The notes below the pieces were generated by a model, which was not told where the DNA came from, did not search any database, and worked only from the letters and a program-made list of their open reading frames with translations. From the NCBI RefSeq assembly GCF_011317445.1, contig NZ_JAAAPL010000001.1, positions 1 through 64,000 on the forward strand: a DNA stretch of 64,000 nucleotides, read 5' to 3'. Position numbers and translations under genes: made by a program. The DNA comes from Chelativorans multitrophicus (GTDB taxonomy: Bacteria > Pseudomonadota > Alphaproteobacteria > Rhizobiales > Rhizobiaceae). Of this stretch, positions 1,466-22,469 are shown piece by piece; position 1 is the first letter of the stretch; every line of letters begins with the position of its first letter.

Positions 1466-1879
1466 CTATTGGGTATCGGGCTGACCGGCCGAGTCAGCGA
1501 GAACTTCGATGATCCGGCAATTTGCGACGTTCCCGTTGTCGCACTCATCGATCATCCGGGTTAGCTCGGTCCGAAGTCCAAGTAGCCGCCGGATGCGGCT
1601 CTCGACGGTCTCGAGCTGATCGGCGGCGATCCGGCTCACCTGCTCACACGACGCTTCGGGCACCTCCTGCAGAGAGAGCATCGTCTTGATGGCAGCGATG
1701 TCGAAGCCGAGGTCCCTGGCATGGCGGATGAACGTCAGCCGCCGAACATCGTCCGCTGCGTAGAGGCGCCTTCCACTTTCGGTTCTCGGCGGTGGGGGAA
1801 TGAGCATAATCCGCTCATAGTAGCGGATCGTCTCGATATTGACGCCAGTGCGCTTGGACAAAGCTCCGATGGTGAACAT
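1466..1879 (-). CDS. MerR-family heavy-metal-responsive regulator (PbrR/CadR-like)
   Basis: This 137-residue regulator has an N-terminal MerR winged helix ('IGALSKRTGVNIETIRYYER'), a long dimerisation helix and a C-terminal metal loop. Three cysteines at residues 78, 113 and 121 match the three-cysteine arrangement of Hg/Pb/Cd-sensing MerR proteins: one at the start of the dimer helix and two near the end in a C-x7-C loop. I chose the ATG at 1879 because the MerR fold begins there; the open frame continues upstream without supporting homology. A MerR-type dyad lies 10 bp upstream of this start, implying autoregulation. The nearby ATPase and CDF genes suggest Pb, Cd or Zn as inducer. The exact metal cannot be read from sequence. 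Confidence 0.88.
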   Translation of the reverse strand: MFTIGALSKRTGVNIETIRYYERIMLIPPPPRTESGRRLYAADDVRRLTFIRHARDLGFDIAAIKTMLSLQEVPEASCEQVSRIAADQLETVESRIRRLLGLRTELTRMIDECDNGNVANCRIIEVLADSAGQPDTQ

Positions 1880-1888
1880 CAACAACAA

Positions 1889-1907
1889 TTCTTTAGTGGC
1901 TACAGAA
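1889..1907. promoter_or_regulatory. MerR-type operator upstream of its regulator gene
   Basis: The plus strand reads TTCTTTAGTGGCTACAGAA, an almost perfect dyad differing by one base from the operator at 5997-6015. It lies just upstream of the regulator start at 1879, so it probably mediates autoregulation. Confidence 0.75.
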
Positions 1908-2100
1908 TTCGATATAGCAAGCGGCCGAGGGCATGTGAAGCGCGAACGATGGGAGGCGAGCAAGTCATAGAAATGCACGCATACAGCGATCCCGCGGAAG
2001 CGGCCGCTAGTGCAGCCTGATGGCGTGTTGGGGTGCAACTCGTGAAGCCATAGCAGAGCATGGCCGTCCGCAGGCGGGCCGCGATAGTGATCTTTAGGGG

Positions 2101-2131
2101 TTGATTCTGTAGTGGCCACAGGAAGTAGATA
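2101..2131 (+). promoter_or_regulatory. MerR-type promoter/operator for the ligase-CDF-P450 operon
   Basis: A -35-like TTGATT (2101-2106) is followed by the dyad CTGTAGTGGCCACAG (2107-2121) and a -10-like TAGATA (2126-2131), giving the overlong 19-bp spacer characteristic of MerR-activated promoters. The layout closely resembles known cadA/pbrA promoters. The next start codon on this strand is at 2168. Confidence 0.75.
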
Positions 2132-2167
2132 TAGCGATTGGTTGGAGGTGTGTGAACCTGACAAATT

Positions 2168-3538
2168 ATGACCGAGCATGTCGTAAGCCTGATCTGGGAC
2201 GCCTGGCGCACTCGGAAGAAGGGGGTGGGCGCAATCGCGCAACGCCAGCGTGCCCGTCTCGCCGACATAGTCGCCCATGCCCGGGCCAACTCCCCGCACT
2301 ACCGTGAGCTGTACCGTGATCTGCCGGATCTGGTTGAAAGCGTCCAGCAGCTCCCGGTCACCGACAAGAAGATGCTCATGGAGCGCTTCGACGACTGGTG
2401 CACCGACCGCGCCGTCACGCTCGAGGCTACAGAAGCGCTCGTCGACGATCCCAGCCGGATCGGAGAGTGGTTCCTCGGAAAATATACCGTAATGACCACC
2501 TCCGGTACGACCGGCCGCCGCGGGATCTTCCTGGTCGACGATCACACGATGGCGGTCGTGACTGCCATGATGCTCCGCTGGATCGGCGATTGGCTCGGCC
2601 CGAGCGACTTCCTTAAAATCATCGCCCGCCGCGGGCGGATGGCAATGGTGATGGCGACCGGCGGCCACTTTGCGTCAGCCGTTGCCGCCGCGCGCCTGAA
2701 GCAGCGGCGCGGCAGCCGCATCGAAGTGCTTTCAGCACATATGCCAACGGCCGAACTTGTCGCGCAGCTGAACCGCTTTCAACCTGCTCTGCTGACGCCC
2801 TATGCCAGCATGGCCGCGCTGCTCGCCGACGAGCAGGAGGCCGGCCGGCTCGATATCCATCCTGTGCTGCTGGCTCTCTCGGCCGAGGGGCTGCCGCAGG
2901 CTGAGTACGGCCGAATTGCTCGCGTGTTCAACGCGAAGATCGGCAACAGCTACGCCGCCTCGGAATGTATGTTTCTGAGTGCCATGTGCGACGAAGGCTG
3001 GCTGCACATCAACGCCGACTGGGTGGCGTTCGAGCCGGTCGACGCCGACTACCGCGCGGTCGCTCCAGGCGAGCAGTCACACACTGTCCTGATCAGCAAT
3101 CTCGCCAACCGCGTGCAGCCGATCCTGCGCTACGACCTCGGCGACAGTGTGCTGCAGCGGCCCGATCCATGCCCCTGCGGCAATCCCTTGCCCGCAATTC
3201 GCGTACAGGGGCGCTCCGCCGACGTTCTCACGTTCCGCACGCCAGGCGGCGAAGTCAGGCTGCCTCCGCTGGCGCTTAGCCAGGCCATTGAGTCAATCCG
3301 CGGCGTGACACTTTTCCAGATCGCGCAGTCCGACCCGGACGGACTTGAATTACGGCTGCAAATCGCGCCGGCGGCGAATGCAGACGCCGTTTGGCGCGAG
3401 GCCGAAGCAGGTCTGCGAAAGGTGCTTGGCGAACACGGGCTTGAACGCGTGGCTATCAGGCGCGGCGGCGAACCGCCGGAACAGGGTCGGGGCGGAAAAT
3501 TCCGGGAGGTCATTCCGCTCTCGGGTGGGCGCTCGTGA
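2168..3538 (+). CDS. PaaK/CapK-like adenylate-forming enzyme
   Basis: This 456-residue protein belongs to the phenylacetate-CoA ligase / coenzyme F390 synthetase-like branch of adenylate-forming enzymes. Visible signatures are the ATP-binding loop 'TSGTTGRRG' near residue 112, the aromatic/acidic segment 'GNSYAASE' near 260, and 'RYDLGDSV...CPCG' near 320-340 where the ATP ribose is bound. These enzymes activate a carboxylic acid as an acyl-AMP, often passing it to CoA. The substrate cannot be told. It is the first gene after a MerR-type promoter, and is followed by a small membrane protein, a cation exporter and a CYP152 P450, so it may act in metal-induced lipid or small-molecule chemistry. 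That link is inference. Confidence 0.8.
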   Translation: MTEHVVSLIWDAWRTRKKGVGAIAQRQRARLADIVAHARANSPHYRELYRDLPDLVESVQQLPVTDKKMLMERFDDWCTDRAVTLEATEALVDDPSRIGEWFLGKYTVMTTSGTTGRRGIFLVDDHTMAVVTAMMLRWIGDWLGPSDFLKIIARRGRMAMVMATGGHFASAVAAARLKQRRGSRIEVLSAHMPTAELVAQLNRFQPALLTPYASMAALLADEQEAGRLDIHPVLLALSAEGLPQAEYGRIARVFNAKIGNSYAASECMFLSAMCDEGWLHINADWVAFEPVDADYRAVAPGEQSHTVLISNLANRVQPILRYDLGDSVLQRPDPCPCGNPLPAIRVQGRSADVLTFRTPGGEVRLPPLALSQAIESIRGVTLFQIAQSDPDGLELRLQIAPAANADAVWREAEAGLRKVLGEHGLERVAIRRGGEPPEQGRGGKFREVIPLSGGRS

Positions 3539-3559
3539 AGCGGGTTCGAGGAGACGTCG

Positions 3560-3757
3560 ATGAAAGGGAAGGAAATTGCCAAGTTCTTTGCGGGCTTAGC
3601 AGCCAATCAGGTGCTCACCCGTGGAGTCTTGGCCACTGCGGGCGTTCAGTTCAGTCTGTTTGGGATCACCTATAACCAGCGGCTGAACACGATCGCCGTT
3701 GTCGTTTGGGGGATCATTCTTCTGCTGCTCATCTACTATGCCTGGGTCAGGAGATGA
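3560..3757 (+). CDS. Small membrane protein of unknown function
   Basis: This 65-residue protein has a hydrophobic segment near residues 20-35 and a strong transmembrane helix at about 45-61 ('TIAVVVWGIILLLLIYYAW') with a positively charged C-terminus, suggesting a bitopic or two-helix membrane peptide. It starts 21 bp after the ligase gene with a GAGGAGACG-type ribosome-binding site, and lies 47 bp before the CDF transporter, consistent with operon membership. I recognise no family; an accessory role in the transporter or ligase system is possible but unsupported. Confidence 0.65.
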   Translation: MKGKEIAKFFAGLAANQVLTRGVLATAGVQFSLFGITYNQRLNTIAVVVWGIILLLLIYYAWVRR

Positions 3758-3804
3758 CGAGCACGAGCAAGTGTGACACGTCTACAGAGGGCGAGACATG
3801 AACC

Positions 3805-4431
3805 ATGCCTAGTGACGAAGAAACAGAGATACGTCTTGATGCTCGCGATGCCGAGGAACGGCGCACTCTGTGGTGGGTACTCGGGATTAACTTCACGCAG
3901 GTCTTGGTAGCCGGTGCCGTTGGCGTGCTTGCGGATTCCACGGGCCTGCTCGGTGCCGCACTCGACAATCTGGGGGACGCCGCTGTTTATGCGGTCAGTC
4001 TCTATGCGGTCGGCCGCACGGTCATTACCAAGGCACGTGCCGCAAACCTGTCCGGCATTCTTCTGATCCTCCTTGCCTTCGGTTTGCTTGTAGAAGTCTT
4101 GCGTCGGTTTTTCGCGGGAGCCGAGCCAATCGGGCTCGCGATGATCATCACGGCGCTCGCGAACGCGGCTACCAATTTGCTCTGCCTTCGCCTTTTGCGA
4201 GCGCATCGTGCGCATGGTGTGCACTTCAAGGCGTCGTGGATTTTTACGACGAACGACATGCTGGCCAATGCGGGCATCGTCCTTTCCGGTCTCTTGGTGA
4301 TGTTTCTGAAGTCTCCCGTCCCCGATCTCGTGATCGGGGTTCTGATCGTCGGAATCGTCCTCAAAGGAGGGTGGGAGATTCTCAAGGAGGCGCGTGAAGC
4401 CCGCGATTCTGCACAGGGAGACAGAGGATGA
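3805..4431 (+). CDS. Cation diffusion facilitator family transporter, short form
   Basis: This 208-residue integral membrane protein carries about six hydrophobic segments arranged like the CDF (ZnT/CzcD/YiiP) transmembrane domain. The metal-site signatures are recognisable: D-x3-D in 'LDNLGDAA' of the second helix and a polar 'TNDMLANAG' motif in the fifth, where YiiP has H-x3-D. It lacks the usual C-terminal cytoplasmic ferredoxin-like domain, ending soon after the sixth helix with a short charged tail. CDF proteins exchange protons for Zn, Cd, Co or related divalent cations at the inner membrane. Its place after a metal-responsive promoter fits export. Metal specificity is not determinable. 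Confidence 0.82.
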   Translation: MPSDEETEIRLDARDAEERRTLWWVLGINFTQVLVAGAVGVLADSTGLLGAALDNLGDAAVYAVSLYAVGRTVITKARAANLSGILLILLAFGLLVEVLRRFFAGAEPIGLAMIITALANAATNLLCLRLLRAHRAHGVHFKASWIFTTNDMLANAGIVLSGLLVMFLKSPVPDLVIGVLIVGIVLKGGWEILKEAREARDSAQGDRG

Positions 4432-4515
4432 CCAAACGTCCCCTGTGGACCCATAACCATGCGTTTGCCTCCAGGAGGCCGGAGGATCTCGCCGAACGGG
4501 ATTTGGAGAGCCGCA

Positions 4516-5763
4516 ATGCCCCGGATTCCACGTGACAGAAGCCTGGACTCGACGATCGCCCTGATGGGTGATCCCTATAGATTTATCTCCAACCGGAGTC
4601 GGCGCTATCGATCGGACCTGTTTGAAACGCGGCTTCTGCTGCGGAAGACCATCTGTATGACGGGCCCGGAAGCGGCCCAGCTGTTCTACGATCCGAGTCG
4701 CTTCGTACGCACTGGTGCGATGCCTAAGGCGATCCAGAAGACGTTGCTCGGCGTGGGTGGCGTGCAGGGCCTCGACGACGACGCCCACCGGCATCGCAAG
4801 CAGATGTTCATGTCGCTGATGACACCCGAGCGGATCGAGCAGCTCGTCCAGCTGACCGCGGCCGAGTGGCAGATCCGAGTGCTCAAGTGGGGATCGATGG
4901 ACGAGGTCGTGCTCTATCCAGAGCTCCACTTGCTTCTGACACGCGCGGTCTGTGCCTGGGCCGGCGTGCCGCTGGCGGATTCAGAGGTCGACGCGCGGAC
5001 CAAGGAGATTGCCGCGTTGTTTGACCATGCGGGTGCGGTCGGACTTAGACATTTGTGGTCGCGGTGGGCCCGAAAACAGGCTGATCGTTGGATAGCGGAT
5101 ATCATCGATCAGATTCGCAGTGGCCGTATCCGCCCGCCCGAACAGTCGGCCGCCCACATCATTGCGTGGCATAGGGATCTGAATGGTGAGTTGCTGACGC
5201 CCCAGATCGCCGCTGTCGAGCTGATCAATGTGATCAGGCCGACGGTTGCCGTCTCGGTTTACATGCTTTTCGTCGCCCACGCATTGCACGCGCATCCCAA
5301 AATTCGAGAGAGGCTTCAGGCTGACGAGGACAGCTACTCCCGCCGTTTCGTCCAGGAGGTTCGCCGGTACTATCCTTTTTTCCCGGCAGTCGCTGCACGG
5401 ACGCGGCAGGCATTCGATTGGAACGGATATCAATTCACCGCAGGTCGACGCGTTCTCCTCGATCTATACGGCACCAACCAGGACCCCCGAACCTGGAAGA
5501 GACCGGAGGAGTTCGAGCCCGAGCGATTCCGCCATTGGGACGAGAGCCCATTCAATTTCATCCCGCAGGGCGGCGGAGACCACTATGTTAATCATCGCTG
5601 TCCTGGCGAATGGATCGCAATCGAGCTCATGAAGCTGACTGCGGATTTCCTCTCGCGATCCATGAGCTATGAGGTGCCGCAGCAAGACCTGCGGATTGAC
5701 TGGTCGCGGCTGCCCGCATTGCCGCGTAGCCGGTTCGTCATTAGGAATGTCAGGGAGAGCTAA
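4516..5763 (+). CDS. Cytochrome P450 of the CYP152 type, fatty-acid peroxygenase
   Basis: This 415-residue protein shows the CYP152 hallmark heme-binding loop 'FIPQGGGDHYVNHRCPGEW', with the cysteine ligand at residue 362. It also has the Arg241-Pro242 pair in the I helix that binds the substrate carboxylate in H2O2-using P450s such as P450-BSbeta and SPalpha. Gln84 occupies the position that is Gln in hydroxylating peroxygenases and His in the decarboxylase OleT, so hydroxylation rather than alkene formation is expected. I chose the ATG at 4516 over the upstream start at 4459 because GGAGAG precedes it by 5 bases and the family begins here. It is the last gene of the metal-responsive operon, an unusual context for a CYP152. 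Confidence 0.88.
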   Translation: MPRIPRDRSLDSTIALMGDPYRFISNRSRRYRSDLFETRLLLRKTICMTGPEAAQLFYDPSRFVRTGAMPKAIQKTLLGVGGVQGLDDDAHRHRKQMFMSLMTPERIEQLVQLTAAEWQIRVLKWGSMDEVVLYPELHLLLTRAVCAWAGVPLADSEVDARTKEIAALFDHAGAVGLRHLWSRWARKQADRWIADIIDQIRSGRIRPPEQSAAHIIAWHRDLNGELLTPQIAAVELINVIRPTVAVSVYMLFVAHALHAHPKIRERLQADEDSYSRRFVQEVRRYYPFFPAVAARTRQAFDWNGYQFTAGRRVLLDLYGTNQDPRTWKRPEEFEPERFRHWDESPFNFIPQGGGDHYVNHRCPGEWIAIELMKLTADFLSRSMSYEVPQQDLRIDWSRLPALPRSRFVIRNVRES

Positions 5764-5992: not shown

Positions 5993-6023
5993 TTGATTCT
6001 GTAGTGGCTACAGAATGTATGGT
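5993..6023 (+). promoter_or_regulatory. MerR-type promoter/operator of the metal ATPase
   Basis: TTGATT (5993-5998), the dyad CTGTAGTGGCTACAG (5999-6013) and TATGGT (6018-6023) give a 19-bp spacer, the configuration activated by MerR-type regulators through DNA untwisting. It is the best-formed of the four copies in this window and is about 60 bp upstream of the ATPase start. Confidence 0.82.
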
Positions 6024-6082: not shown

Positions 6083-9000
6083 ATGAAAGTTGATGCCGCG
6101 GCGACGGGCACTGCCGGCTCACTCCGGTTCAAGGTCGACGGCCTTGATTGCCAAAACGAGGTCCGCGCGCTTCGCACAGCGGTAGGTCCCGTTGTGGGCG
6201 GTGACGACAAACTGTCCTTCCACACCCAAGCGGGCGTTATGGAGGTGCTGTCCGGGAACCCTTCGGAGCTCGATGCCATTCAGCGGGCGGTTGCTACGAC
6301 TGGAATGCGAGCGCATCTTCTGCCGGAGGAGGCAGCGCGGCAAGCCGCACCGACACTCCTGTTCCGGGTCGAGGGGCTCGACTGCAAGAACGAAGTCGCG
6401 GCGCTCAAGCGCGAAATCGGCCCGCTGGTCGGCGGCGACGCTTGGCTAATGTTTGACGCGACGAAAGGGCTCATGACCGTGGCCCCGCAGCGAAAGGCGA
6501 CGGTCGACGATATAATCGGCCACGTGGCCCGGACCGGAATGCGGGCTTCACTCGTCGTGGAGGGTGCAGCCGAGGCAATGCTCTTTCGGGTCCAGGGCCT
6601 CGACTGCAAGAACGAGGTGGCGGCGCTCACGCGGGAACTCACACCGCTCGTCGGCGAAAGCAAACTCGCTTTTGACACCGCCGAAGGCACGATGACGGTG
6701 GCCCCCCAGAGCCGAGCGGCGGCAGACCTGATCGCCCAAGCCGTGGCTCGAACGGGCATGCGCGCCGAACTATGGGCGCCGCAGGCGGCCTCACCCGCTC
6801 CAGCCCAGCCCGCCGTGGTACATGAGGGTTCGGCGTGCGGCTGCGGCGCAGAGGTGCAAGAGGTCTTCAGCCCGCCGATCCCGACCCACTTACCCGGTCA
6901 GGTCGTGTTTCGCATTCATGGCATGGATTGTGCCGACGAGATCGCGGCCTTGAAGCGGGAGGTTGGGCCGCTCGTCGGGGAAGACAAGCTCGCTTTTGAT
7001 CTCCTCAACGGCCGCATGTCGATCGACGTGACACCGGATTCCGTGCTCGAAGCCCGTATCGAAAAGGCGGTGGCTCGCGCCGGCCTACGCGCGGAGCCGT
7101 GGATCGAAGGTGGCATTAGCGAAGCCGCACAGATCGAAGAGCGCCGCAAGCGGGTGCAGTCGTGGCTGACAACCGCAAGCGGCGTGCTCACCGCGCTGGG
7201 CTTCGCGGTCCACGCTTGGCTCGGGGGCGGCGTCATAGCGGCTTTCGAGGCAGGCGAACATGCCATGGGCACAACCCCGTTGCCGAGCATGGTTCTCTAC
7301 GCGGTCGCCGTGCTCTGTGCCGCGCGCTACGTCGGGCCCAAGGCTTGGCTCGCGGCGAAGCGACTTCGACCCGACATGAATCTGCTGATGGTGGTTGCGG
7401 TCGCGGGCGCGATCGGCATCGGCGCCTGGTTCGAGGCCGCCACCGTTTCGTTCTTTTTTGCATTGGCGCTGGCGCTCGAGGCCTGGAGCCTTGGTCGCGC
7501 GCGCCGGGCAGTTGCCGCCCTTATGGAACTCGCGCCGCCGACGGCACGCGTCAAACTTGAAGACGGCTCCGAGCGCGACGTGCCGGCGGCCGAGGTGCGA
7601 GTCGGCGCGCGGATCATAATCCGGCCGGGAGACAAGGTGCCGCTCGACGGCCGGGTTGCCGCTGGCGAGAGTGAGGTCAACCAGGCACCGATCACCGGTG
7701 AAAGCGTGCCGGTATTCAAGGCAGAAGGCGACGACGTCTTTGCCGGGACCATCAACGGTGAGGGTGCAATCGAGGTCGTGACCACCAAAGCGGCGAATGA
7801 CACGACGCTTGCCCAGATTATCCGCATGGTCGGTTCGGCGCAGAGCCGACGCGCGCCCAGTGAGCAATGGGTGGAGAAATTCGCGCGCGTCTACACACCC
7901 GTCGTGATGGTACTCGCCGTTGCGATTTTTCTCGCTCCGCCCTTGCTCTTTGGCGGTGCCTGGGACGTCTGGTTCTACCGGGCTCTCGTGCTCCTCGTGA
8001 TCGCTTGCCCCTGCGCGCTCGTGATTTCGACCCCGGTGACGATCGTCGCGGCACTCGCCGGCGCGGCAAAGCAGGGTGTCTTGGTAAAGGGCGGCACCCA
8101 TCTCGAGACGCCTGCGCACCTCAAGGCGATTGCCTTGGACAAGACGGGCACGCTCACCGAAGGACGACCGCAGGTCGTCGAGATTGTGCCGCTTCGAGGG
8201 CGCAGCGAAACTGAGCTCCTCGGCTTGGCCGCCGCCCTGGAGGCGCGCAGCGGACATCCGATCGCTCGCGCCATCCTGGCGAAAGCCGCCGAACTGAAAA
8301 TCGCCGCCGAGCCTGCCGAGGCTGTCCAAGCTATCACTGGCCGAGGGGTCAGCGGGCGCGTGGCCGGTCGCGAGATGTGGCTCGGCTCGCGCCGCTACCT
8401 TGAGGAGCGCGGTGTCAATTCTGCTGAGGTTCTGCAGCGGGCAGATGCGCTTTCGAGCGCCGGTCGCACTATCGTCGCGGTCGGCGATGGTCGGGACGTC
8501 TGGGGACTCGTTGCCGTCGCCGATGCGGTCAGGCCGGAGGCCAAGGACATTGTCACGGCGCTGCACCGCGCCGGGATCGGACACGTTGTGATGCTCACTG
8601 GAGACAATCGCGCGACAGCCGAGGCGATTGCGAAGCAGACGGGCATCGACGAGGTCCAGGCAGAACTTCTACCTGGCGACAAGGTGGCGGCGGTCGAGGA
8701 TTTGGTGCGGCGCTACGGATCGGTGGCGATGGTCGGCGACGGAGTCAATGACGCTCCCGCGATGGGGCGCGCCAATCTCGGCATCGCCATGGGTGCCATG
8801 GGCAGCGACGCCGCCATTGAAACGGCCGATGTTGCCCTCATGTCAGACGATCTTTCGAAACTTCCTTGGCTGGTGCGCCATTCGCGCGCGACGCTCGCCG
8901 TCATCCGACAAAACGTTGCCTTCTCGATCGCTGTGAAGCTCTTGTTCACAGCGCTGACGGTGATTGGTCTCGCATCGCTCTGGGGTGCTATCGCGGCGGA

Positions 9001-9151
9001 CGTCGGCGCGTCTCTGCTGGTCGTTCTCAATGGCCTGCGCCTGCTCAATCGTGGTCAGACCAGCAGTCAAAAGGGTGGCCCATCCAGCGGCCTTGGCGTT
9101 TCGCTGCACCGGCATCGGGCCTCGACGATCACCGAGACGGTCCCGGCGTAG
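6083..9151 (+). CDS. P1B-type heavy-metal ATPase with four CxxE metal-binding domains
   Basis: This 1022-residue exporter has the P-type ATPase core: TGES actuator loop, the CPC metal motif at residues 642-644, phosphorylated Asp686 in DKTGTLTEG, the SGHP motif and GDGVNDAP hinge. The CPC form and the neighbouring CadR/PbrR-like operator indicate the Zn/Cd/Pb (ZntA-type) group. The N-terminus is odd. Four tandem HMA-like domains have G-L/M-D-C-x-N/D-E at Cys23, Cys101, Cys175 and Cys283, so the second cysteine of CxxC is replaced by glutamate. A CGCG cluster lies between domains 3 and 4. I chose the ATG at 6083, preceded by AAGGAGATATTA, over the upstream ATG at 6035. lspA and a ccdA-like gene follow. 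Confidence 0.93.
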   Translation: MKVDAAATGTAGSLRFKVDGLDCQNEVRALRTAVGPVVGGDDKLSFHTQAGVMEVLSGNPSELDAIQRAVATTGMRAHLLPEEAARQAAPTLLFRVEGLDCKNEVAALKREIGPLVGGDAWLMFDATKGLMTVAPQRKATVDDIIGHVARTGMRASLVVEGAAEAMLFRVQGLDCKNEVAALTRELTPLVGESKLAFDTAEGTMTVAPQSRAAADLIAQAVARTGMRAELWAPQAASPAPAQPAVVHEGSACGCGAEVQEVFSPPIPTHLPGQVVFRIHGMDCADEIAALKREVGPLVGEDKLAFDLLNGRMSIDVTPDSVLEARIEKAVARAGLRAEPWIEGGISEAAQIEERRKRVQSWLTTASGVLTALGFAVHAWLGGGVIAAFEAGEHAMGTTPLPSMVLYAVAVLCAARYVGPKAWLAAKRLRPDMNLLMVVAVAGAIGIGAWFEAATVSFFFALALALEAWSLGRARRAVAALMELAPPTARVKLEDGSERDVPAAEVRVGARIIIRPGDKVPLDGRVAAGESEVNQAPITGESVPVFKAEGDDVFAGTINGEGAIEVVTTKAANDTTLAQIIRMVGSAQSRRAPSEQWVEKFARVYTPVVMVLAVAIFLAPPLLFGGAWDVWFYRALVLLVIACPCALVISTPVTIVAALAGAAKQGVLVKGGTHLETPAHLKAIALDKTGTLTEGRPQVVEIVPLRGRSETELLGLAAALEARSGHPIARAILAKAAELKIAAEPAEAVQAITGRGVSGRVAGREMWLGSRRYLEERGVNSAEVLQRADALSSAGRTIVAVGDGRDVWGLVAVADAVRPEAKDIVTALHRAGIGHVVMLTGDNRATAEAIAKQTGIDEVQAELLPGDKVAAVEDLVRRYGSVAMVGDGVNDAPAMGRANLGIAMGAMGSDAAIETADVALMSDDLSKLPWLVRHSRATLAVIRQNVAFSIAVKLLFTALTVIGLASLWGAIAADVGASLLVVLNGLRLLNRGQTSSQKGGPSSGLGVSLHRHRASTITETVPA

Positions 9152-9754: not shown

Positions 9755-10492
9755 GTGGCGCTCATCGATGTGTCTTTGCTCGGGTTGGTCACGGCCGCGA
9801 TGGCTGGAGCCATCTCCTTCCTCTCGCCCTGCGTGCTGCCGCTCGTACCGGGCTATTTGTCGTATGTCGCGGGAGGCGTGAACGGTGATTGCTTCGATGG
9901 GAGGAGCCGCCGGTTCCATGTTCTCGGGCCAGCCCTGCTCTTCGTGCTCGGCTTCACGGCGGTGTTTGTTCTGCTCGGGCTCAGTGCGATGGCCCTTGGT
10001 GGATTTCTGCAACGTTATCAGATCCAAGCGAATCTAATCGGCGGTGCGTTGGTCACTGTCTTCGGTCTCGCTATGACAGGGCTGCTGCGCCTGCCCGCCG
10101 TATTGATGGCGGACCGGCGCTGGAGCGGGCCGACGCAGATTGGAGGCCCCTTCGGAGCGTTTCTCCTCGGCATCGCCTTTGCCTTTGGATGGACGCCTTG
10201 CATCGGCCCGGTGCTCGCTTCCATCCTGACAGTCACGGCGGCCTCTTCTGGAAACGGCGCGGTGCTCCTCGGAGCTTATGGCCTCGGGGTCGGCCTCCCG
10301 TTTGTCTTAGCGGCACTGTTCTTCGGCAATGCGGCCGTCGCTCTGAAGCGGATGCGTCGCGCTGGCGCGGTCCTCAACGTAGGAGCAGGAGCAGTGATGG
10401 TCGGCGTCGGCATTCTGATGATGACCGGTCGCCTGCAAGTGATTGCCATCTGGATGCTGACGACTTTTGCGATACTCGGCAGCATCGGATGA
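9755..10492 (+). CDS. CcdA-like thiol-disulfide transmembrane transporter
   Basis: This 245-residue polytopic protein has about six transmembrane helices and the two cysteine motifs of the CcdA/DsbD membrane domain: 'FLSPCVLPLVPGY' in the first helix and 'GWTPCIGPVL' in the fourth. Such proteins pass electrons from cytoplasmic thioredoxin to periplasmic thiol proteins. I chose the GTG at 9755, just after the lspA stop at 9752, because the frame's upstream ATG at 9695 lies inside lspA. The tight spacing says it is translated with lspA in the metal operon. It could keep periplasmic metal-binding thiols reduced, which is inference. Confidence 0.85.
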   Translation: MALIDVSLLGLVTAAMAGAISFLSPCVLPLVPGYLSYVAGGVNGDCFDGRSRRFHVLGPALLFVLGFTAVFVLLGLSAMALGGFLQRYQIQANLIGGALVTVFGLAMTGLLRLPAVLMADRRWSGPTQIGGPFGAFLLGIAFAFGWTPCIGPVLASILTVTAASSGNGAVLLGAYGLGVGLPFVLAALFFGNAAVALKRMRRAGAVLNVGAGAVMVGVGILMMTGRLQVIAIWMLTTFAILGSIG

Positions 10493-11386: not shown

Positions 11387-11417
11387 ATGAATCTGTAGCG
11401 ACTACAGAATCGATCTT
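11387..11417 (+). promoter_or_regulatory. MerR-type operator upstream of the NAD synthetase gene
   Basis: The dyad CTGTAGCGACTACAG (11393-11407) is the fourth copy of the island's MerR-type operator. The flanking -35 (ATGAAT) and -10 (GATCTT) are weaker than in the other copies but keep the same 19-bp spacing. It points toward the NAD synthetase gene, whose start is about 105 bp downstream. Confidence 0.65.
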
Positions 11418-11520
11418 TGCGTAGCATCTGTCAAATTTGAACGTGGTCGCGGTGTCAGCGGTCACGGTCGCTTGGCTCACTCGGCAACGGGAACGCAAGA
11501 ACAGGAGATCGCACGGGCAG

Positions 11521-13566
11521 ATGAGCTTCTATTCTATCTATCAGCAGGGTTTCATTCGCGTAGCTGCCTGTACACCGAAATGCGAAGTCGCCGATCCGGG
11601 CTACAATGTCGCCGAAACGGTTGCGCTCGCCCGCGATGGTGCACGACAGGGTGTGGCGCTGATGGTCTTCCCGGAATTGGGCCTCTGTGCTTATGCGATC
11701 GACGACATTCTCGGCCAGGCTGCACTGCTGCAGCGGGTAGAACAGGCGATCGAGGAGATTGCGGCCGCAAGCGCTGAGCTTTCGCCTGTTTTGCTCATCG
11801 GCGCGCCGCTAGCTCGCGAAGGACGACTCTACAATTGCGCTGTCGTTATCCATCGGGGGCGCATTTTGGGTGTCGTTCCCAAAGGACACCTGCCGAATTA
11901 CCGAGAGTTCTACGAAAAGCGTTGGTTCGCCTCAGGGCGAAACCTGAAAAGAGCTACCATCGGGATTGCAGGTCAGCCCGTCCCCTTCGGAATGGATCTG
12001 ATCTTCGCGGCCGAGGATTTGCCAGGCTTCGTCTTCCACGTCGAACTGTGCGAAGACCTATGGGGACCGGCTCCGCCCAGCGACTTTGCGGCGCTCGCCG
12101 GCGCTCTTATCCTGGCCAACCTCTCGGCCAGCAGCATCACCGTCGGAAAGGCAGAAACGCGCCGACTACTCTGCGCAACCCAATCGGCGCGGTGCTGGGC
12201 CGCATATATCTATTCCGCGGCCGGTCCGGGCGAGTCAACGACGGACCTCGCTTGGGACGGCCAAGCCTGCATTTATGAGCTCGGGTTGCTTCTGGCGGAG
12301 ACCGAGCGGTTTCCGCTGGACTCGCAAATGGCTATAGCCGACGTCGACGTTGAGAGACTCACGTTGGAGCGTCTGCGCACTGGCACCTTCAACGAGGCGG
12401 CCATCGCACAAAATATGCCTGAAGACAGGTTCCGACGTATAGGCTTCCAGTTCGAGCCGCCCATGACGGACCTCGGGCTGCGCAGGATAGTCGCACGCTT
12501 TCCCTATGCTCCTGCCGATTCGGCACGGCTCGACCAGGATTGCTACGAAGCCTATAGCATCCAGGTGCAGGGACTGATGAAGCGCCTGCAGGCGACAGGC
12601 ATCCGCCGCGTCTGCATTGGCGTCTCCGGTGGTCTGGATTCCACTCACGCGTTGATCGTGGCGGCCAAGGCATTCGACCGGCTAGGCTGGCAGCGATCCG
12701 ATATTCTCGGCTTCACGATGCCGGGGTTCGCGACCGGGGATGCCACGAAAGACAATGCCTGGGCGCTGATGCGCAGTCTCGGCGTCACTGCTGAGGAGAT
12801 CGACATTAAGCCGCTGGCGCAGCAAATGCTGGCAGGACTGCGGCATCCATTCGCCAAGGGTGAGATGGTTTACGACGTGACTTTCGAGAATGTGCAGGCG
12901 GGACTGCGCACTGACATCTTGTTCCGTGCGGCTAATCAGCGAGGCGCCATTGTCCTTGGCACCGGCGATCTATCGGAAATCGCACTGGGCTGGTCGACCT
13001 ACGGCGTTGGTGATCAAATGAGTCACTACAACGTCAATGCGTCAGTGCCGAAGACACTCATTCAGCACCTTATTCGCTGGGTGGCGCAGTCGAATGCCTT
13101 CGACGCGGGAACGAATGCAACGCTGCTGTCCATCCTTGATACCGTGATCTCGCCTGAGCTTATACCGGCAGATGAGGGCGGTCCATCGCAGAGCACGGAA
13201 GAGAAGATTGGACCGTATGAGCTGCAGGATTTCACGCTGTTTTATCTGACACGGTACGGCTTGAAACCATCGAAGATCGCATTCTTGGCGTTCCACGCTT
13301 GGCGTGATATCGCCGCCGGTGCCTGGCCACCTCAATACCCTGATGACCGCCGCAGGGCATATGATCTGCCTACAATCAAGTCTTGGATGGAGGTGTTCCT
13401 CTATCGATTCTTTACGATCAGCCAGTTCAAGCGCTCCGCATCTCCCAACGGGCCTAAAGTCACAGCCGGAGGCTCGCTGTCGCCGCGTGGCGACTGGCGG
13501 GCTCCGTCGGACGGCAACGCCCGCCTTTGGTTGGAGGAGTTGCGCGCCAACACGCCGTCTGAATGA
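11521..13566 (+). CDS. nadE: Glutamine-dependent NAD(+) synthetase
   Basis: This 681-residue enzyme makes NAD from deamido-NAD, ATP and glutamine. The N-terminal nitrilase-type glutaminase carries the catalytic triad: Glu52 in 'FPELG', Lys121 in '[10 protein letters not shown]' and a Cys at about 177 in 'VELCEDLW'. The C-terminal ATP-pyrophosphatase domain has the P-loop 'GVSGGLDS' near residues 367-374. Length and triad spacing match the long mycobacterial-type NadE. I chose the ATG at 11521; an in-frame TTG at 11437 would add 28 residues without homology. It lies downstream of a MerR-type operator like that of the metal ATPase, so it may be a metal-induced paralogue rather than the housekeeping gene. 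Confidence 0.92.
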
Positions 13567-17186: not shown

Positions 17187-17603
17187 TCAAGCCGGCCGCG
17201 GCGGACCGGAAACCACCTCGCCATCCTCCTTGGTGAACGTGCCGATGTTGGGGTTCGGCAGGATTTCCAGCACGGCCTCGGAGGGACGAGCGAGCGTCAC
17301 GCCGAGCGGCGTGACGACGATCGGCCGGTTGATCAGGATCGGGTGCGCCAACATGAAGTCGGTCAGCTCGTCGTCCGTCCACTCCGGATCGCTGAGACCA
17401 AGCTCGGCATAGGGCGTGCCCTTCTCGCGCAGCAAGTCGCGCGGCGTGATCCCCATCGCCGCGATTAGCTCCACGAGCCTTTCCTTCGATGGCGGGGTCT
17501 TTAGATACTCGATCACCTCCGGTTCCTCGCTGGACTGGCGGATCATCGCGAGGGTGTTGCGGGACGTGCCGCAGTCGGGGTTGTGGTAAATGGTGATCTT
17601 CAT
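17187..17603 (-). CDS. arsC: Arsenate reductase, glutaredoxin-dependent type
   Basis: This 138-residue enzyme reduces arsenate to arsenite using glutathione and glutaredoxin. The nucleophilic cysteine is in 'HNPDCGTSRNTL' (Cys11), and the conserved arginines of the R773 ArsC family lie in 'DLLREKGTPY' and 'NRPIVVTPLG'. Length and order fit that family exactly. Its ATG overlaps the aqpS stop by four bases (ATGA), so the two are translationally coupled. A second, thioredoxin-type arsC lies upstream but is truncated, which would leave this as the only intact arsenate reductase of the operon. Confidence 0.93.
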   Translation of the reverse strand: MKITIYHNPDCGTSRNTLAMIRQSSEEPEVIEYLKTPPSKERLVELIAAMGITPRDLLREKGTPYAELGLSDPEWTDDELTDFMLAHPILINRPIVVTPLGVTLARPSEAVLEILPNPNIGTFTKEDGEVVSGPPRPA

Positions 17604-18298
17604 TCGGCGGCTTTCGGTTCCAGGCTGGCAGGTGTCTTGGCCGCTTCGCTCGCGAGCCATCCCGCCATGATCATGGCGAGGACGGCGCCGAGAAGCTGGG
17701 CGGCGATGAATGCCGGCACGTCGATCGGACGAATGCCGGCAAAGGTGTCGGTGAAGGCGCGGGCGATCGCCACGGCGGGATTGGCGAAGGACGTCGAGGC
17801 CGTGAACCAGTAGGCGGCCGTGATGTAGAGCCCGACCAGCCAGGCAACGGCATCCGGCCGAAAGCGCAGACCCGCGAGGATCGTGAAGACAAGCCCGAAC
17901 GCCGCGACCGTTTCCGCGATCCATTGGCCCGAACCCGTGCGTATGGTCTGGGAGGCCTGCAGGAGCGGCAGCTCGAACATGGCGTGCGCGAGCAGCGTGC
18001 CGGTAGTGCCGCCGAGCACCTGCGCGACGACATAGGCGAGCGCCGCGTTCGCCTCGATTTCCCGGCGCAGCGCGAAGACGAGGGTCACGGCCGGGTTGAA
18101 GTGCGCGCCGGAGATCGGTCCGAGGATCGTGATCAGCACCACGAGAATCGCGCCGGTCGGCAGCGTATTGCCGAGGAGCGCCAGGGCAACGTCATCCGTC
18201 AGCCGGTCGGCCATGATGCCAGAGCCCGCGACTGTCGCGACAAGGATTCCCGTGCCGAGCGCTTCGGCCGTCAGGCGACGCGACAGGTCGAACGCCAT
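17600..18298 (-). CDS. aqpS: Aquaglyceroporin of the ars operon (AqpS-like)
   Basis: This 232-residue MIP-family channel has both pore motifs: the first NPA in 'SGAHFNPAVTL' and the second in 'FANPAVAIARAFTDTFAGI', and about six membrane helices. In rhizobia, AqpS replaces the ArsB/Acr3 pump by letting arsenite made by ArsC leak out down its gradient. It starts at the ATG at 18298, 5 bp after the stop of the truncated upstream arsC, and overlaps the next arsC by ATGA. Because the transposon removed the upstream end of the operon, its native promoter is probably missing. Confidence 0.9.
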   Translation of the reverse strand: MAFDLSRRLTAEALGTGILVATVAGSGIMADRLTDDVALALLGNTLPTGAILVVLITILGPISGAHFNPAVTLVFALRREIEANAALAYVVAQVLGGTTGTLLAHAMFELPLLQASQTIRTGSGQWIAETVAAFGLVFTILAGLRFRPDAVAWLVGLYITAAYWFTASTSFANPAVAIARAFTDTFAGIRPIDVPAFIAAQLLGAVLAMIMAGWLASEAAKTPASLEPKAAE

Positions 18299-18303
18299 AG
18301 CCC

Positions 18304-18600
18304 TCAGCCCGCTTCGGGCAGACGACGGCCGATCTCGTCGAGCCGGCGCTGCAGGGCGAGCTTGTCGAGCGACCTCATCGGCAGGTTGACGAAGATCGAG
18401 ATGCGGTTCGCGAGCATCCGGTAGGTGTCGGCGAAGGCAAATCGCTTCTCCGCCTCGGTCCCTTCGACCGCGGCCGGGTCCGGCACCCCCCAGTGTGCCG
18501 TCATCGGTTGTCCCGGCCAGACCGGGCAGGCCTCGTTGGCCGCGTCGTCGCAGACGGTGAACACGAAATCCATCTTCGGCGCGTCGGGAGCGGCGAACTC
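18304..18600 (-). pseudogene. arsC: Arsenate reductase, thioredoxin type, 5' part deleted
   Basis: The preserved C-terminal 95-100 residues ('PDAPKMDFVFTVCDDAANEACPV', 'AHWGVPDPAA', 'RMLANRISIFVNLP') are typical of low-molecular-weight-phosphatase-type ArsC proteins fused or linked to ars operons of rhizobia. The frame breaks exactly at 18601, where the Tn3 inverted repeat begins, so the N-terminal half with the catalytic C-x5-R loop is lost. The remaining piece cannot reduce arsenate. Confidence 0.85.
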
Positions 18601-18775
18601 GGGGTCGGAACAAGAGCAGTGCCAAATCGTACGCTAAGGCCGAACGGATGGTGAACGTCATGCGGCGCGCAACATTCGGCCGGGAAGAGGGGTCGGAACA
18701 AGAGCAGTGCCAAATCGTACGCTAAGGCCGAACGGATGGTGAACGTCATGCGGCGCGCAACATTCGGCCGGGAAG
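18601..18775. repeat. Tandem duplication of the Tn3-family left end
   Basis: An 87-bp sequence beginning GGGGTCGGAACAAGAGCAGT occurs at 18601-18687 and again, identically, at 18689-18775, separated by one A. It contains the terminal inverted repeat and the last codons of tnpA. Only the inner copy is continuous with the transposase gene. Transposon biology or a short-read assembly overlap could both explain it. Confidence 0.9.
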
Positions 18776-21721
18776 CCGCAAGGGCCTGAAGCCTTCGGAC
18801 AACTGCTGCTCGGTGTCCCAGGAATAGATGCCGGTGAGATTGATGTGCTCCCAGCTGAGCGGCGAGACGTGCTTCAGCAATCCGTCGGGAATATTCCGGC
18901 CTCGCTGGCGCAAATGAGCCGTTGCCCGGCTGAGATAGACGGTGTTCCAATGAACGATGGCGCTGACCACGAGGTTGAGGCCGGAAGCCCGGAATGCCTG
19001 ACTGTCAAAGGAACGATCACGGATTTCGCCGCGCTCGTGGAAAAAGACGGCGCGCTTGAGCTTGTGAGCGGCTTCGCCTTTGTTGAGCCCGGCCTGACAG
19101 CGCCGGCGCAGCGCCGGGCTGGAATACCATTCGATCATGAACAGGGTGCGCTCGATGCGACCGAGTTCGCGTAACGCTTTGGCCAGATCGCTGGATTTGG
19201 ACGAGGCGGACAACCGTTTGAGAATCGCTGACGGCGCGACGGTGCGCGTGGTGATTGACGCGGCAAGGCGCAGGAGCTCGTCCCAATGTTCCATGATGAG
19301 CGCGGTGTTGATAGGCGCGCCGATATGATTCGCCAGCGTCGGATAGGCATCGGCTTTTTCGAAGGTATGGAATTTTCTGTCCTTGATGTTGCGAAGACGT
19401 GGCGCGAAGCGCCTACCGATCAGGCAGAACAGCGCAAAGACATGATCGCTTGCGCCGCCGGTGTCCGTGAACAACTCCTCGATCTCCAGAATCGTGTCGT
19501 GGTCGAATAGGCCGTCGAGCACATAGACGGCCTCGCTCTCGGTCGGGCTGATCGGCAGGATGCTGTAATAGCCGTACTGGTCGGAAAGACCGCTGTAGAA
19601 CTTCGAGCCCGGTTCGCTGCCATAATGCAGGTTGATGTCGCTGCGCCTTGCGGCCCGGTCACTGGCGCGGAAGAATTGCCCATCGGATGAGGCTGTCGTT
19701 CCGTCGCCCCAGATTTGCGCATGCGGATGGCGGGTATGGGCATCGGTGACGCAGGCCTGCGCGGCCCGATAGGTTTCGGAGCGGGCATGGAAGCTGCGCA
19801 TCCAGCCGATCTGGTGGGCGCTGATCCCCTTCGACGCCCCCGCCATGCGTTTCGGGCCGAGATTCGTGCCATCGGCAAGCACGCCGGCCAGTATGGCGGC
19901 GATGTTTTGTGGCGCATCTCCCGTCCGGACGTGGGTGAACTGGTCGGCAAATCCGGTCCATTCATGTACCTCCCGCAAGAGATCGGGCACCTCGACCAGA
20001 GGATACATGTCCGTGATTTCGGCATTGAGGGCTTCCGCCGCTGCGGGAACATCGCTGGTATGCGGCGTCACGGTCAGCGTGCCGTTTTCCATCCTCACAC
20101 CATCGAGCTTGCCGAAACGGGCGCGCCAGGCCAGCCGTTTGAGATTGAAGTCCATCATTTGCCCGACTTCAGCCAGCCAGATAGCGCAGTCGGACGGGAC
20201 ACCGAGTCCGAGCTGATCTTGCCCCTTCAGAGCGACAAAGGTTGGCTTCGGCATGAGATCTTCGTCTATCGGCCGGAATGACCGGCTGCCCTCGACCCAC
20301 ACATCGCGCGAATGCAGCCGGTCCCGTAAATGAGCGAAGGTGGCGATTTCATAAAGCCGCCGATCCGGCTTGCCATCCTCGAAGACCAGTTTCCTTTCGT
20401 TCGCACCCAGATGGCCGACCGGCACGCGATCCGGCAGAACACGGCGTCCCTCCACATAAAGCATTTTCAGGGTCGCGACCGCCGCAAGCAGCGGATCGTG
20501 CCGGCGGCGCGAGCGGAACGTGAATGCCTGAAGGAAAGCGCCGGCAAACTTGCGGATGTTTCCATGTTGCTCGGCCGCCAGCACCAGCGGTGACATGTCG
20601 CCGTTCTCCACCATGGCCTCAAGGCTGGGTTTGATCTGCAGCAGCCGATGCCAGCCCACGCGCCTGTCCAGTATCGTCATGGGATCGACATCATTGTCGT
20701 TCGCTGCCTGCAAGGCAACGATCGTGTCGAGGAACAGTCGCAGCGCCCTGGATGTTTCGATGCGGGCGTTCATGTGACGCTGCTTTTTCCGGTTGTTGGC
20801 CTGGGAGAATAGCCGGCCCATCAGCTTGATGAACATCATTACCGCATCGTCGGTGAGCTTCTGGCCGAGCTTGATCACCTGGGCCACGATTGTCGCACGG
20901 CGACGGCTGGCGTTGAAGTCACTGGCGAGCCAGGCCGGTGTGGCATCACCTTCGCGGACCATCTGCTCCCATCGTCCGGAGGGGATGCGGGCCTGTAAAC
21001 GAGGATCGATCCCAAGCGAGCGCAGGAACGCGATCCGTTCCGTCAAGCCGACCAGGTTGCCTGCTCCGGGGGCGTCGGGAGCAGAGCGCAGCCAATGAAA
21101 GCGCGTCTGTCCGATCGCCGGATCAATGTTCAGCAAGGCATCGAGGGTTTCAAGCTTTTCCGGATCGAGATCCGAGATCAGCGCGTGCTCTGCGCGGCGG
21201 CGAGCAACAGCGCGCGCTGCCAACCCCATGCGTTCGATCATGTTCACCGCCGGCAGGAGAACCCGGCGCTCCCGGAACGTGGCAATGATTGCCTTTGCGA
21301 TCACCGCCCCCTTATCTGTTGTTGAGGCCGCGTCGATGGCTGCCATCAGCGCCGTACGACGGTCATCGGCTGTCGGGCTTCGCATTTCCAGATAGCCGAG
21401 CAGGTGTGCGATGTGATCGCGGCGAGTTTCCTCACGGCGGGCGTAGAGATCAAATAGTCTGGGATCAGCGTCGATCTGTTCGGCGACATAATTGAGCATC
21501 GCGCCCGGAGGAGTCTCGTTCGGCATGAGCGGCCGGCCAGGATGGCGCATCAGGCAGAGCTGCAACGCAAAGCCAAGCTGGTTGTGCTTGCGCCTGCGAA
21601 GCTCGATTTCCAGCCGATCGGCCGGTGACAGGGAATAATGGCGGATCAGGCTGTCGTCATCGGTGGGAATGCAGAAAAGCTCCTGTCGATCCTGAACTTT
21701 TAGAAGCGTCCGTTTGGCCAT
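18746..21721 (-). CDS. tnpA: Tn3-family transposase
   Basis: This 991-residue protein is a full-length Tn3-type DDE transposase. An N-terminal DUF4158-like region ('[21 protein letters not shown]') is followed by the long helical DNA-binding part and the catalytic domain, with the characteristic '[14 protein letters not shown]' and '[21 protein letters not shown]' blocks and a C-terminal '[15 protein letters not shown]'. No stop or frameshift interrupts it, so it may be active. It catalyses replicative cointegrate formation at the 38-bp ends. Its last codons fall within the duplicated 87-bp end. Confidence 0.95.
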
Positions 21722-21875: not shown

Positions 21876-22469
21876 ATGCCACGCACCTTCGCCTATGTTC
21901 GCGTCTCGACGACCGGACAAACCACCGAAAACCAGATCCAGGAGATCGAAGCAGCCGGCTTTCATGTCGAACCGCGCCGCATCGTCACCGAGACGGTTTC
22001 CGGCAGCACCGCCATTGCGCAGCGCCGCGGCTTTTCCCGACTCATGGATAAGCTGGAGTCCGGCGATATTCTCATCGTGACCAAGCTCGACCGGCTCGGT
22101 CGTGATGCGATCGACGTCAGCACCACCGTCAGGACGCTGGCCGAAATGGGTGTGAAGGTCTATTGCCTCGCACTCGGCGGCGCCGATCTCGCCAGTTCGG
22201 CCGGCACGATGACCATGAACGTGCTCAATGCCGTCGCACAGTTCGAGCGCGATTTGCTGATCGAGCGGACACAGTCCGGTCTCAAGCGCGCCAAATCGGA
22301 AGGAAAGGCCCTTGGCCGCCCTTCGAGGCTCAGTGAAAAGCAGAAGCAGGATGTGCGCGGTGATCTTGCCAAGGGGATGAGCGTTTCAGCGATCGCCAGG
22401 AAATTTGCCACCAGCCGACAGACCATTATGCGGGTTCGCGACGAGGGTTCACGATCCGTTCGACCTTAG
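21876..22469 (+). CDS. tnpR: Tn3 resolvase, serine recombinase
   Basis: This 197-residue serine recombinase has the catalytic N-terminal domain (Ser in 'YVRVSTTGQTTENQ', 'TKLDRLGRDAIDV', 'NAVAQFERDLLIERTQSG') and a C-terminal helix-turn-helix ('MSVSAIARKFATSRQTIMRV'). It resolves cointegrates at res. It is divergent from tnpA across the res region. The final codons lie within the duplicated transposon end, so a second partial copy of its 3' end is present at 22504-22589. Confidence 0.95.
   Translation: MPRTFAYVRVSTTGQTTENQIQEIEAAGFHVEPRRIVTETVSGSTAIAQRRGFSRLMDKLESGDILIVTKLDRLGRDAIDVSTTVRTLAEMGVKVYCLALGGADLASSAGTMTMNVLNAVAQFERDLLIERTQSGLKRAKSEGKALGRPSRLSEKQKQDVRGDLAKGMSVSAIARKFATSRQTIMRVRDEGSRSVRP

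Follow-up and report, generated by a model that had tools for sequence, protein, structure and literature searches.

The first 64,000 nucleotides of contig NZ_JAAAPL010000001.1 of Chelativorans multitrophicus (RefSeq assembly GCF_011317445.1), here called the window, carry an operon of four genes that very probably acts as a functional accessory of metal resistance. It encodes a PaaK-like adenylate-forming enzyme, a putative membrane protein of 65 amino acids (aa), a short transporter of the cation diffusion facilitator (CDF) type and a CYP152 fatty-acid peroxygenase. With slightly less than even confidence, we read it as that part of a Zn/Cd/Pb-type resistance island, itself probably mobile, which modifies lipids or other acids. 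A preliminary description of this DNA had placed the four genes behind one MerR-type promoter and had given them these identities. Both points held: the promoter lies at 2101-2131, the four reading frames are all open on the same (+) strand at 2168-5763, with gaps of 21, 47 and 84 base pairs (bp; the last for a CYP152 start at 4516), and profile and homology searches support the identities of the PaaK-like enzyme, the CDF and the CYP152. The contig is 2.27 Mb long, in a genome of 4.82 Mb and 15 contigs. The operon and its regulatory elements are as follows.

2168..3538, + strand: PaaK-like adenylate-forming enzyme, 456 aa, PaaK/F390-synthetase-like
3560..3757, + strand: 65-aa putative membrane protein of no family, matched in 11 of the fetched loci, planctomycetes among them, under purifying selection
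3805..4431, + strand: short CDF-type transporter, 208 aa, PF01545 above cut-off, DNLGD at residues 54-58, no HxxxD
4516..5763, + strand: CYP152 fatty-acid peroxygenase, 415 aa, P450SPalpha-like, with Gln84, Arg241, Pro242, Phe288 and Cys362
1466..1879, - strand: MerR-family regulator, 137 aa, Cys78/Cys113/Cys121, Pfam MerR_1 and MerR-DNA-bind
2101..2131, + strand: MerR-type promoter of the paaK operon, with -35 element TTGATT (2101-2106), a 19-bp spacer containing the dyad CTGTAGTGGCCACAG, and the -10-like TAGATA (2126-2131)
1889..1908, + strand: operator dyad at the start of merR, at most one mismatch
5997..6016, + strand: operator dyad of the ATPase operon, with TTGATT at 5993
11391..11410, + strand: operator dyad before nadE, found by box search

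A shared operator

The merR gene is divergent from the paaK operon, and its product combines the DNA-binding domain with the Cys78/Cys113/Cys121 set of MerR metalloregulators. The name PbrR/CadR proposed for it could not be secured, the score against TIGR02047 being 107 (cut-off 151.45); the NCBIfam models for ZntR (PRK09514), CueR, CadR-PbrR and MerR all give ~104-108 bits, under their respective cut-offs. An overlong spacer between the -35 and -10 elements is typical of MerR promoters. A search with a 20-base box, allowing up to three mismatches, produced six matches at four places in the window (1889, 2105, 5997 and 11391) and none in 100 shuffles. The layout points to metal regulation, the paaK operon sharing its operator with the operon of a ZntA-like pump. 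At one mismatch or fewer the dyad occurs at three places in the whole 4.82-Mb genome, all inside the island; with its two mismatches, the paaK copy falls outside this count. Because the reversed pattern also gives two matches per strand genome-wide, the weight of the result rests on all three dyads falling within 11.4 kb. The dyad at 1889 makes autoregulation of merR probable.

Linkage of the PaaK-like gene to metal transporters

Scanning GTDB genomes returned at least 571 confirmed relatives of the PaaK-like protein, the best 80 of which were kept with up to 10 kb per side (several on short contigs). A locus was called metal-linked if a P1B ATPase, a CDF or CadD was nearby, and 41 of the 80 qualified within 10 kb (P1B ATPase in 31, CDF or CadD in 23), a conserved linkage. 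LspA was found at 21 of the 80 loci, MerR at 14 and CYP152 at eight, all eight among the 41 metal-linked ones. None of 40 arbitrary 20-kb segments qualified (Fisher p 5e-10), which led us to reject a chance neighborhood of PaaK and metal genes. These segments were taken at fixed positions in 14 genomes of the window's phylum, the genome of the window itself contributing eight, and therefore serve as a control for Pseudomonadota chromosomes but do not extend to plasmids or to other phyla. Two had CzcA matches and one ArsR matches, which the definition does not count.

On the PaaK tree (which, like the CYP152 tree discussed below, comes from a quick search with one support measure and is drawn midpoint-rooted) the metal-linkage label changes 9 times, versus 28.4 when shuffled. 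The metal-linked rows belong to the Pseudomonadota, Planctomycetota, Bacteroidota, Acidobacteriota, Chloroflexota, Caldisericota, Verrucomicrobiota and Actinomycetota; a further row comes from a 4.7-kb contig of a Methanosarcina metagenome-assembled genome and may be misbinned, and a Bacillota plasmid provides an additional case. Relatives from Bradyrhizobium, Streptomyces, Nonomuraea and the Ktedonobacteria, which lack metal genes, are mostly grouped on the tree. Besides PaaK itself, the 39 metal-free loci have only three clusters common to at least four loci, mostly spurious-looking opposite-strand frames, and the idea of taking a substrate hint from this set was dropped for want of recognizable shared neighbors.

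The set is not unique to this genome. Another Chelativorans locus (L032, from Chelativorans intermedius LMG 28482) has the layout merR / paaK-paaK2-65-aa gene-CDF-CYP152 / P1B-LspA, that is, the same four genes and a second PaaK behind the same operator, with dyads before paaK and the P1B gene only. A planctomycete locus (L047) has matches to all four in a changed order, CYP152-65-aa gene-CDF-PaaK, after CzcA and P1B pieces (its CDF match covers 80 aa and its PaaK contains a stop; elsewhere, the PaaK of L102 lies in two frames and the CYP152 match of L034 covers 196 aa). Plasmid 3 of Arthrobacter FB24 (L007), an extra record found through PaaK, reads CYP152-ArsR-CadA-LspA-CcdA-CadD-PaaK; its CYP152 is in two pieces, so the start may be broken or mis-read. 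A Paenarthrobacter locus (L084) shows one CYP152 match of 399 aa. CYP152 and PaaK occur together with metal genes in the Pseudomonadota, Bacteroidota, Planctomycetota and Actinomycetota, and the regulators beside linked sets are MerR and also ArsR/CmtR. Three pairs of loci are near-copies (L040/L041, L030/L031 and L065/L068).

The operator is conserved as well. A dyad is located 63-84 bp upstream of the PaaK match in 13 of the 14 MerR-containing loci among the best 80 and in 0 of the 66 without MerR (L031 being a copy of L030, and L034 counted by hand to its first PaaK piece). The sole MerR locus lacking it, L098, has its MerR ~5 kb away. The background for the dyad is 12 matches (~6 palindromes) in 458 kb of 23 unlinked loci.

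Linkage seen from CYP152

Plasmid relatives of the CYP152 numbered 115 records, and 18 were chosen by us among the 40 best listed. P1B, CDF or CadD lies within 8 kb in 14 of these 18 and LspA only in one (L139); the three with none are from Sinorhizobium (L130), Stanieria (L134) and Alteromonas (L137), the annotated neighbors in Sinorhizobium including a metal transporter, multicopper oxidases and MntR. The order ArsR/CmtR - CDF - (CcdA) - LspA - CYP152 recurs in six loci (L125, L126, L127, L129, L132 and L136), and in four of these a Na/Ca exchanger gene either precedes CcdA or follows CYP152. We also took 17 CYP152s, 40-51% identical, from evenly drawn genomes at the class, order and phylum levels, including the window genome's second copy on contig C9; one lies 1.1 kb from a contig end, and a 231-aa fragment in genome G518 was left out. 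None of the 17 had a metal gene in stretches of 12-20 kb, so the notion that metal genes surround any CYP152 is rejected. The C9 copy itself (G000:C9:374492-375709) is 44-45% identical to the window protein and has no metal genes around it.

On a tree of 45 CYP152 sequences, metal linkage requires six changes, five of them forced by supported branches, versus 15.2 when shuffled. Most metal-linked CYP152s fall in a main clade apart from the genome-sampled ones, comprising 22 rows (19 metal-linked, one with LspA only and two with neither) of alphaproteobacterial and planctomycete origin and one from Alteromonas. An actinobacterial metal-linked pair is nested, with support, among unlinked CYP152s and away from the alphaproteobacterial ones; the placement of a Bacteroidota-Bacillota trio relative to the main clade is without support either way. 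Judged by this tree, CYP152s came to metal loci independently in two lineages or more.

The presence of separate lineages in the same metal company is the strongest sign of function and speaks against hitch-hiking, that is, against the genes being stable neighbors on mobile metal islands with no role in resistance. Such hitch-hiking would suit the many relatives on plasmids, the Tn3 transposase in the window and the 39 of the best 80 PaaK loci that lack a metal transporter as defined here. We nevertheless consider it improbable, given also the near-perfect association of the paaK dyad with MerR, the persistence of gene content while gene order shifts (L047, L040 and L007) and the purifying selection on the genes. 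The lack of support for a third separate CYP152 recruitment slightly lowers the odds for a functional accessory role.

Recurrent partners of the metal loci include LspA, CcdA/DsbD, MAPEG proteins (L004, L009 and L128) and methyltransferases of the ICMT/PEMT and UbiE types, all with membrane, lipid or thiol roles. In four loci of Rubrobacter and Chloroflexota (L006, L058, L065 and L068) matches to a UbiE-like and an ICMT/PEMT-type methyltransferase lie directly 5' of PaaK, the ICMT match of L065/L068 being just 39 aa. A peroxiredoxin gene adjoins CYP152 in L139 and lies one gene away in L009. These peroxiredoxin and MAPEG genes, and the CcdA, TlpA-type or thioredoxin genes nearby, would fit a detoxification of peroxide and free fatty acids in which CYP152 is a fatty-acid-dependent peroxide sink, the PaaK-like enzyme sends acids to degradation as coenzyme A (CoA) esters and the envelope is left unchanged. 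We regard this as rather unlikely: none of the 13 neighbor clusters (besides PaaK) common to at least four metal-linked loci is a catalase or beta-oxidation cluster as judged by eye, no dedicated search having been made, and catalase would presumably be a far better sink than CYP152.

The two enzymes

By their sequences, both enzymes keep intact catalytic motifs. The CYP152 is homologous over its full length to PDB entry 3awm (552.8 bits, E 4.6e-165, residues 1-413), which we take to be P450SPalpha, CYP152B1 of Sphingomonas paucimobilis. Its start at 4516 matches residue 1 of P450SPalpha; the ATG at 4459 in the list of open reading frames is also possible and would add 19 residues. With 594 bits against the CypC equivalog model NF053744 (cut-off 600) it is a CYP152 that is not filed as CypC, and carboxylate-binding Arg241/Pro242 replace the acid-alcohol pair, as expected of the family. 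PMC5818669 names Arg241/Pro242/Gln84 for P450SPalpha and describes the conversion of fatty acids to 2-hydroxy fatty acids with hydrogen peroxide (H2O2), and PMC10002949 likewise treats the Sphingomonas 2-hydroxylases as H2O2-dependent P450s. The catalytic residues are kept in 24 metal-linked sequences, one of which has a gap at Gln84. By analogy with P450SPalpha, the window enzyme is probably a fatty-acid 2-hydroxylase.

The PaaK-like enzyme belongs to the ANL superfamily by its PaaK fold and adenylation motifs, and scores below the cut-offs of TIGR02304 (F390 synthetase-related, 120.5 bits vs. 251.9), TIGR02155 (PaaK phenylacetate-CoA ligase, 23.7 vs. 646.3) and Pfam PF00501 (15 bits vs. 29.9). 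Foldseek comparisons with ligases for aromatic or short acids (TM ~0.5-0.6, rmsd, i.e. root-mean-square deviation, 8-15) recover the PaaK fold alone, and the attempt to read a substrate from structure was abandoned. Relatives of this fold include 6hdw, a ligase for a 2-hydroxy acid. With a threshold of E 1e-20, a level that would miss weaker copies, the genome yielded no second copy of this PaaK. A second PaaK-like gene, 38-57% identical to the window protein, stands in tandem or nearby in metal loci L028, L032 and L044, where the paired genes are perhaps partners with different substrates.

Such pairs bear on another explanation, in which an adenylated acid would be combined with an alpha-hydroxy acid in a metal ligand, either a small molecule or a lipid, such as a metallophore-like or membrane-bound chelator. 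Solved enzymes of the PaaK fold include NatL2 and AjiA1, presumably natural-product enzymes, and methyltransferases dependent on S-adenosylmethionine or resembling ICMT adjoin PaaK in other phyla. Profile searches of the four-gene operon show no carrier protein, condensation enzyme or product exporter, and we give a metal ligand little credence.

The short CDF and the 65-aa protein

The transporter scores 55.1 bits against PF01545 (cut-off 26.6) and 57.1 against the superfamily model TIGR01297 (cut-off 82.35), marking it as a short, unusual CDF; at 208 aa it is too short to hold the C-terminal domain of classical CDFs. Classical Zn-type CDFs have HxxxD or DxxxD in both metal-site helices. Among D/H/NxxxD patterns the window protein has only DNLGD at 54-58, and so departs from the classical Zn type.

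The 65-aa open reading frame, which has no family match in profile searches, may encode a membrane protein to judge from its hydrophobic C-terminal half. Two of its 11 matches elsewhere are imperfect (a 22-aa piece only in L033 and an in-frame stop in L009). Its ratio of nonsynonymous to synonymous substitution rates (dN/dS) is 0.14-0.18 versus L032, L028 and L102, and the corresponding ratio of proportions of differences (pN/pS) is 0.24 versus planctomycete L047, where dS is saturated. Matches elsewhere and purifying selection indicate that it is a real gene.

Proposed function

We predict that a MerR-type sensor would switch on four promoters, those of merR, of paaK-65-aa gene-CDF-CYP152, of ATPase-lspA-ccdA and of nadE, upon which the ATPase and the CDF would pump metal out. 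Metal would also raise H2O2 and release damaged membrane fatty acids. CYP152 would 2-hydroxylate free fatty acids using H2O2 directly, and the PaaK-like enzyme would adenylate a carboxylic acid and hand it on as a thioester, the simplest candidate being the 2-hydroxy product of CYP152. Hydroxylated chains could then re-enter envelope lipids, hardening or repairing them. From knowledge of the families we infer the H2O2-driven 2-hydroxylation, the adenylation, the metal class and the metal control; a common substrate for CYP152 and the PaaK-like enzyme is a guess, and so is an envelope lipid as the product.

Several observations weigh against this scheme. CYP152 is missing from 33 of the 41 metal-linked PaaK loci in the best 80, and this PaaK lies within 8 kb in 0 of the 18 chosen plasmid CYP152 loci, so one joint pathway is not required and the shared substrate stays a guess. 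The nearest solved PaaK-type relatives with a ligand in the entry title use aromatic or short acids, not long chains, and there is no acyltransferase among the genes of the four-gene operon. Unlinked CYP152s keep Arg, Pro, Phe and Cys equally (20/20; Gln84 18/20), and these residues therefore indicate activity and not a metal role.

PMC10002949 describes the 2-hydroxyl of sphingolipids, mostly eukaryotic, as stabilizing lipid-lipid contacts via hydrogen bonds, and in its passages on skin reports no clear barrier role for it in mice. PMC12416667 reports seven CYP152s across four extreme sites, including a mine drainage with high Pb, Zn and Cu; its passages on these enzymes do not tie them to resistance genes. 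The metal-induced lipid modification first speculated on for this operon is plausible, and we tentatively favor envelope lipid remodeling or repair as its purpose. That the whole amounts to a mobile and widespread mechanism, in which metal-caused peroxide drives a peroxygenase, an adenylate-forming enzyme activates the 2-hydroxy acids and the envelope is hardened, and that it came together on more than one occasion around the Zn/Cd/Pb pumps of several phyla, is a possibility that we hold with some doubt.

The remainder of the island

Downstream of CYP152 the island continues with four further genes.

6083..9151, + strand: ZntA-like P1B ATPase, 1022 aa, four N-terminal G[LM]DC motifs, CPC at 642, TIGR01525 and TIGR01512
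9228..9752, + strand: LspA lipoprotein signal peptidase, extra copy, TIGR00077 above cut-off
9755..10492, + strand: CcdA/DsbD-type membrane protein, PF02683 above cut-off
11512..13566, + strand: glutamine-dependent NAD synthetase, second copy, NF002730 1072 bits, above cut-off

The ATPase scores 597 bits against TIGR01525, above its cut-off, and 507.4 against TIGR01512 (cut-off 313.5), which with the CPC motif assigns it to the P1B Zn/Cd/Pb type. The start codon of nadE is not fixed, 11512 being an arbitrary in-frame codon. The other NAD synthetase of the genome (C1:83068-84594) is 31-32% identical to the island copy, and NAD synthetase genes lie at most 10 kb from metal-linked genes in L128, L042 and L004, where the enzyme is of a different, shorter type, and ~10 kb away in L102. 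Matches to LspA occur at four places in the genome: in the window, twice on the 160-kb contig C11, where two CDFs are encoded as well (one of the LspA matches there has an in-frame stop), and as a divergent copy on C9 (32%).

These divergent further copies of LspA and NadE, and the second CYP152 on C9, would be expected if the four-gene set, like the extra LspA and NadE, consisted of spare, metal-hardened housekeeping enzymes replacing metal-sensitive native ones. The genome offers no other copy of this PaaK to replace, within the E-value limit given above, and CYP152, present in 6 of 385 genomes of the class at E up to 1e-40, is too rare for a housekeeping enzyme; we consider this explanation very unlikely.

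A Tn3-family transposase (18746-21721) and a divergent resolvase (21876-22469) indicate that the island is probably mobile. Elsewhere in the window are a MIP (aquaporin-type) gene (17600-18661), near the contig edge (193-1098) a minus-strand YtkA-like gene and a Met/Cys-rich 121-aa open reading frame lacking a family match, and, within 23471-29340, a 1597-aa open reading frame with SdrD_B and DUF11 repeats, a surface-type protein, followed by a frame at 28210-29340 that has a DUF7925 match just under cut-off.

Comparison with known systems

Bacterial resistance to Zn, Cd and Pb has been described mainly as efflux, binding and precipitation. Searches of an open-access library, which lacks most subscription journals, turned up no description of a metal-resistance operon of such content, in line with the earlier claim, and nothing that places CYP152 or the present PaaK family within metal operons. 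All of the gene families are known. What appears to be new is their recurring combination with metal resistance, which suggests an acid- or lipid-modifying arm of a regulated efflux locus. If this is true, the envelope itself would be a regulated part of metal defense, with the pumps of several phyla paired with peroxygenase, acid-activating and membrane-lipid enzymes; part of the CYP152 family would gain a natural and directly testable context, and PaaK-like enzymes lacking an assigned substrate would gain metal as an inducer.

Among characterized enzymes, P450SPalpha has the same Gln84, Arg241, Pro242 and heme Cys as the window CYP152, which differs by its place in a MerR-controlled metal operon. 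The PaaK-like enzyme stands apart from both PaaK phenylacetate-CoA ligases and F390-synthetase-related proteins, scoring under both curated cut-offs. Among resistance loci, the pbr operon of Cupriavidus metallidurans has in common with the island a MerR regulator, a P1B ATPase and an LspA-type signal peptidase; to our knowledge it contains neither a CYP152 nor an adenylate-forming enzyme. The zntR-zntA and cadR-cadA loci are MerR-regulated efflux loci that share with the island a MerR protein with Cys78/113/121, an operator in an overlong spacer and a P1B ATPase, to which the island adds nadE and the co-regulated operon of PaaK-like enzyme, 65-aa protein, CDF and CYP152.

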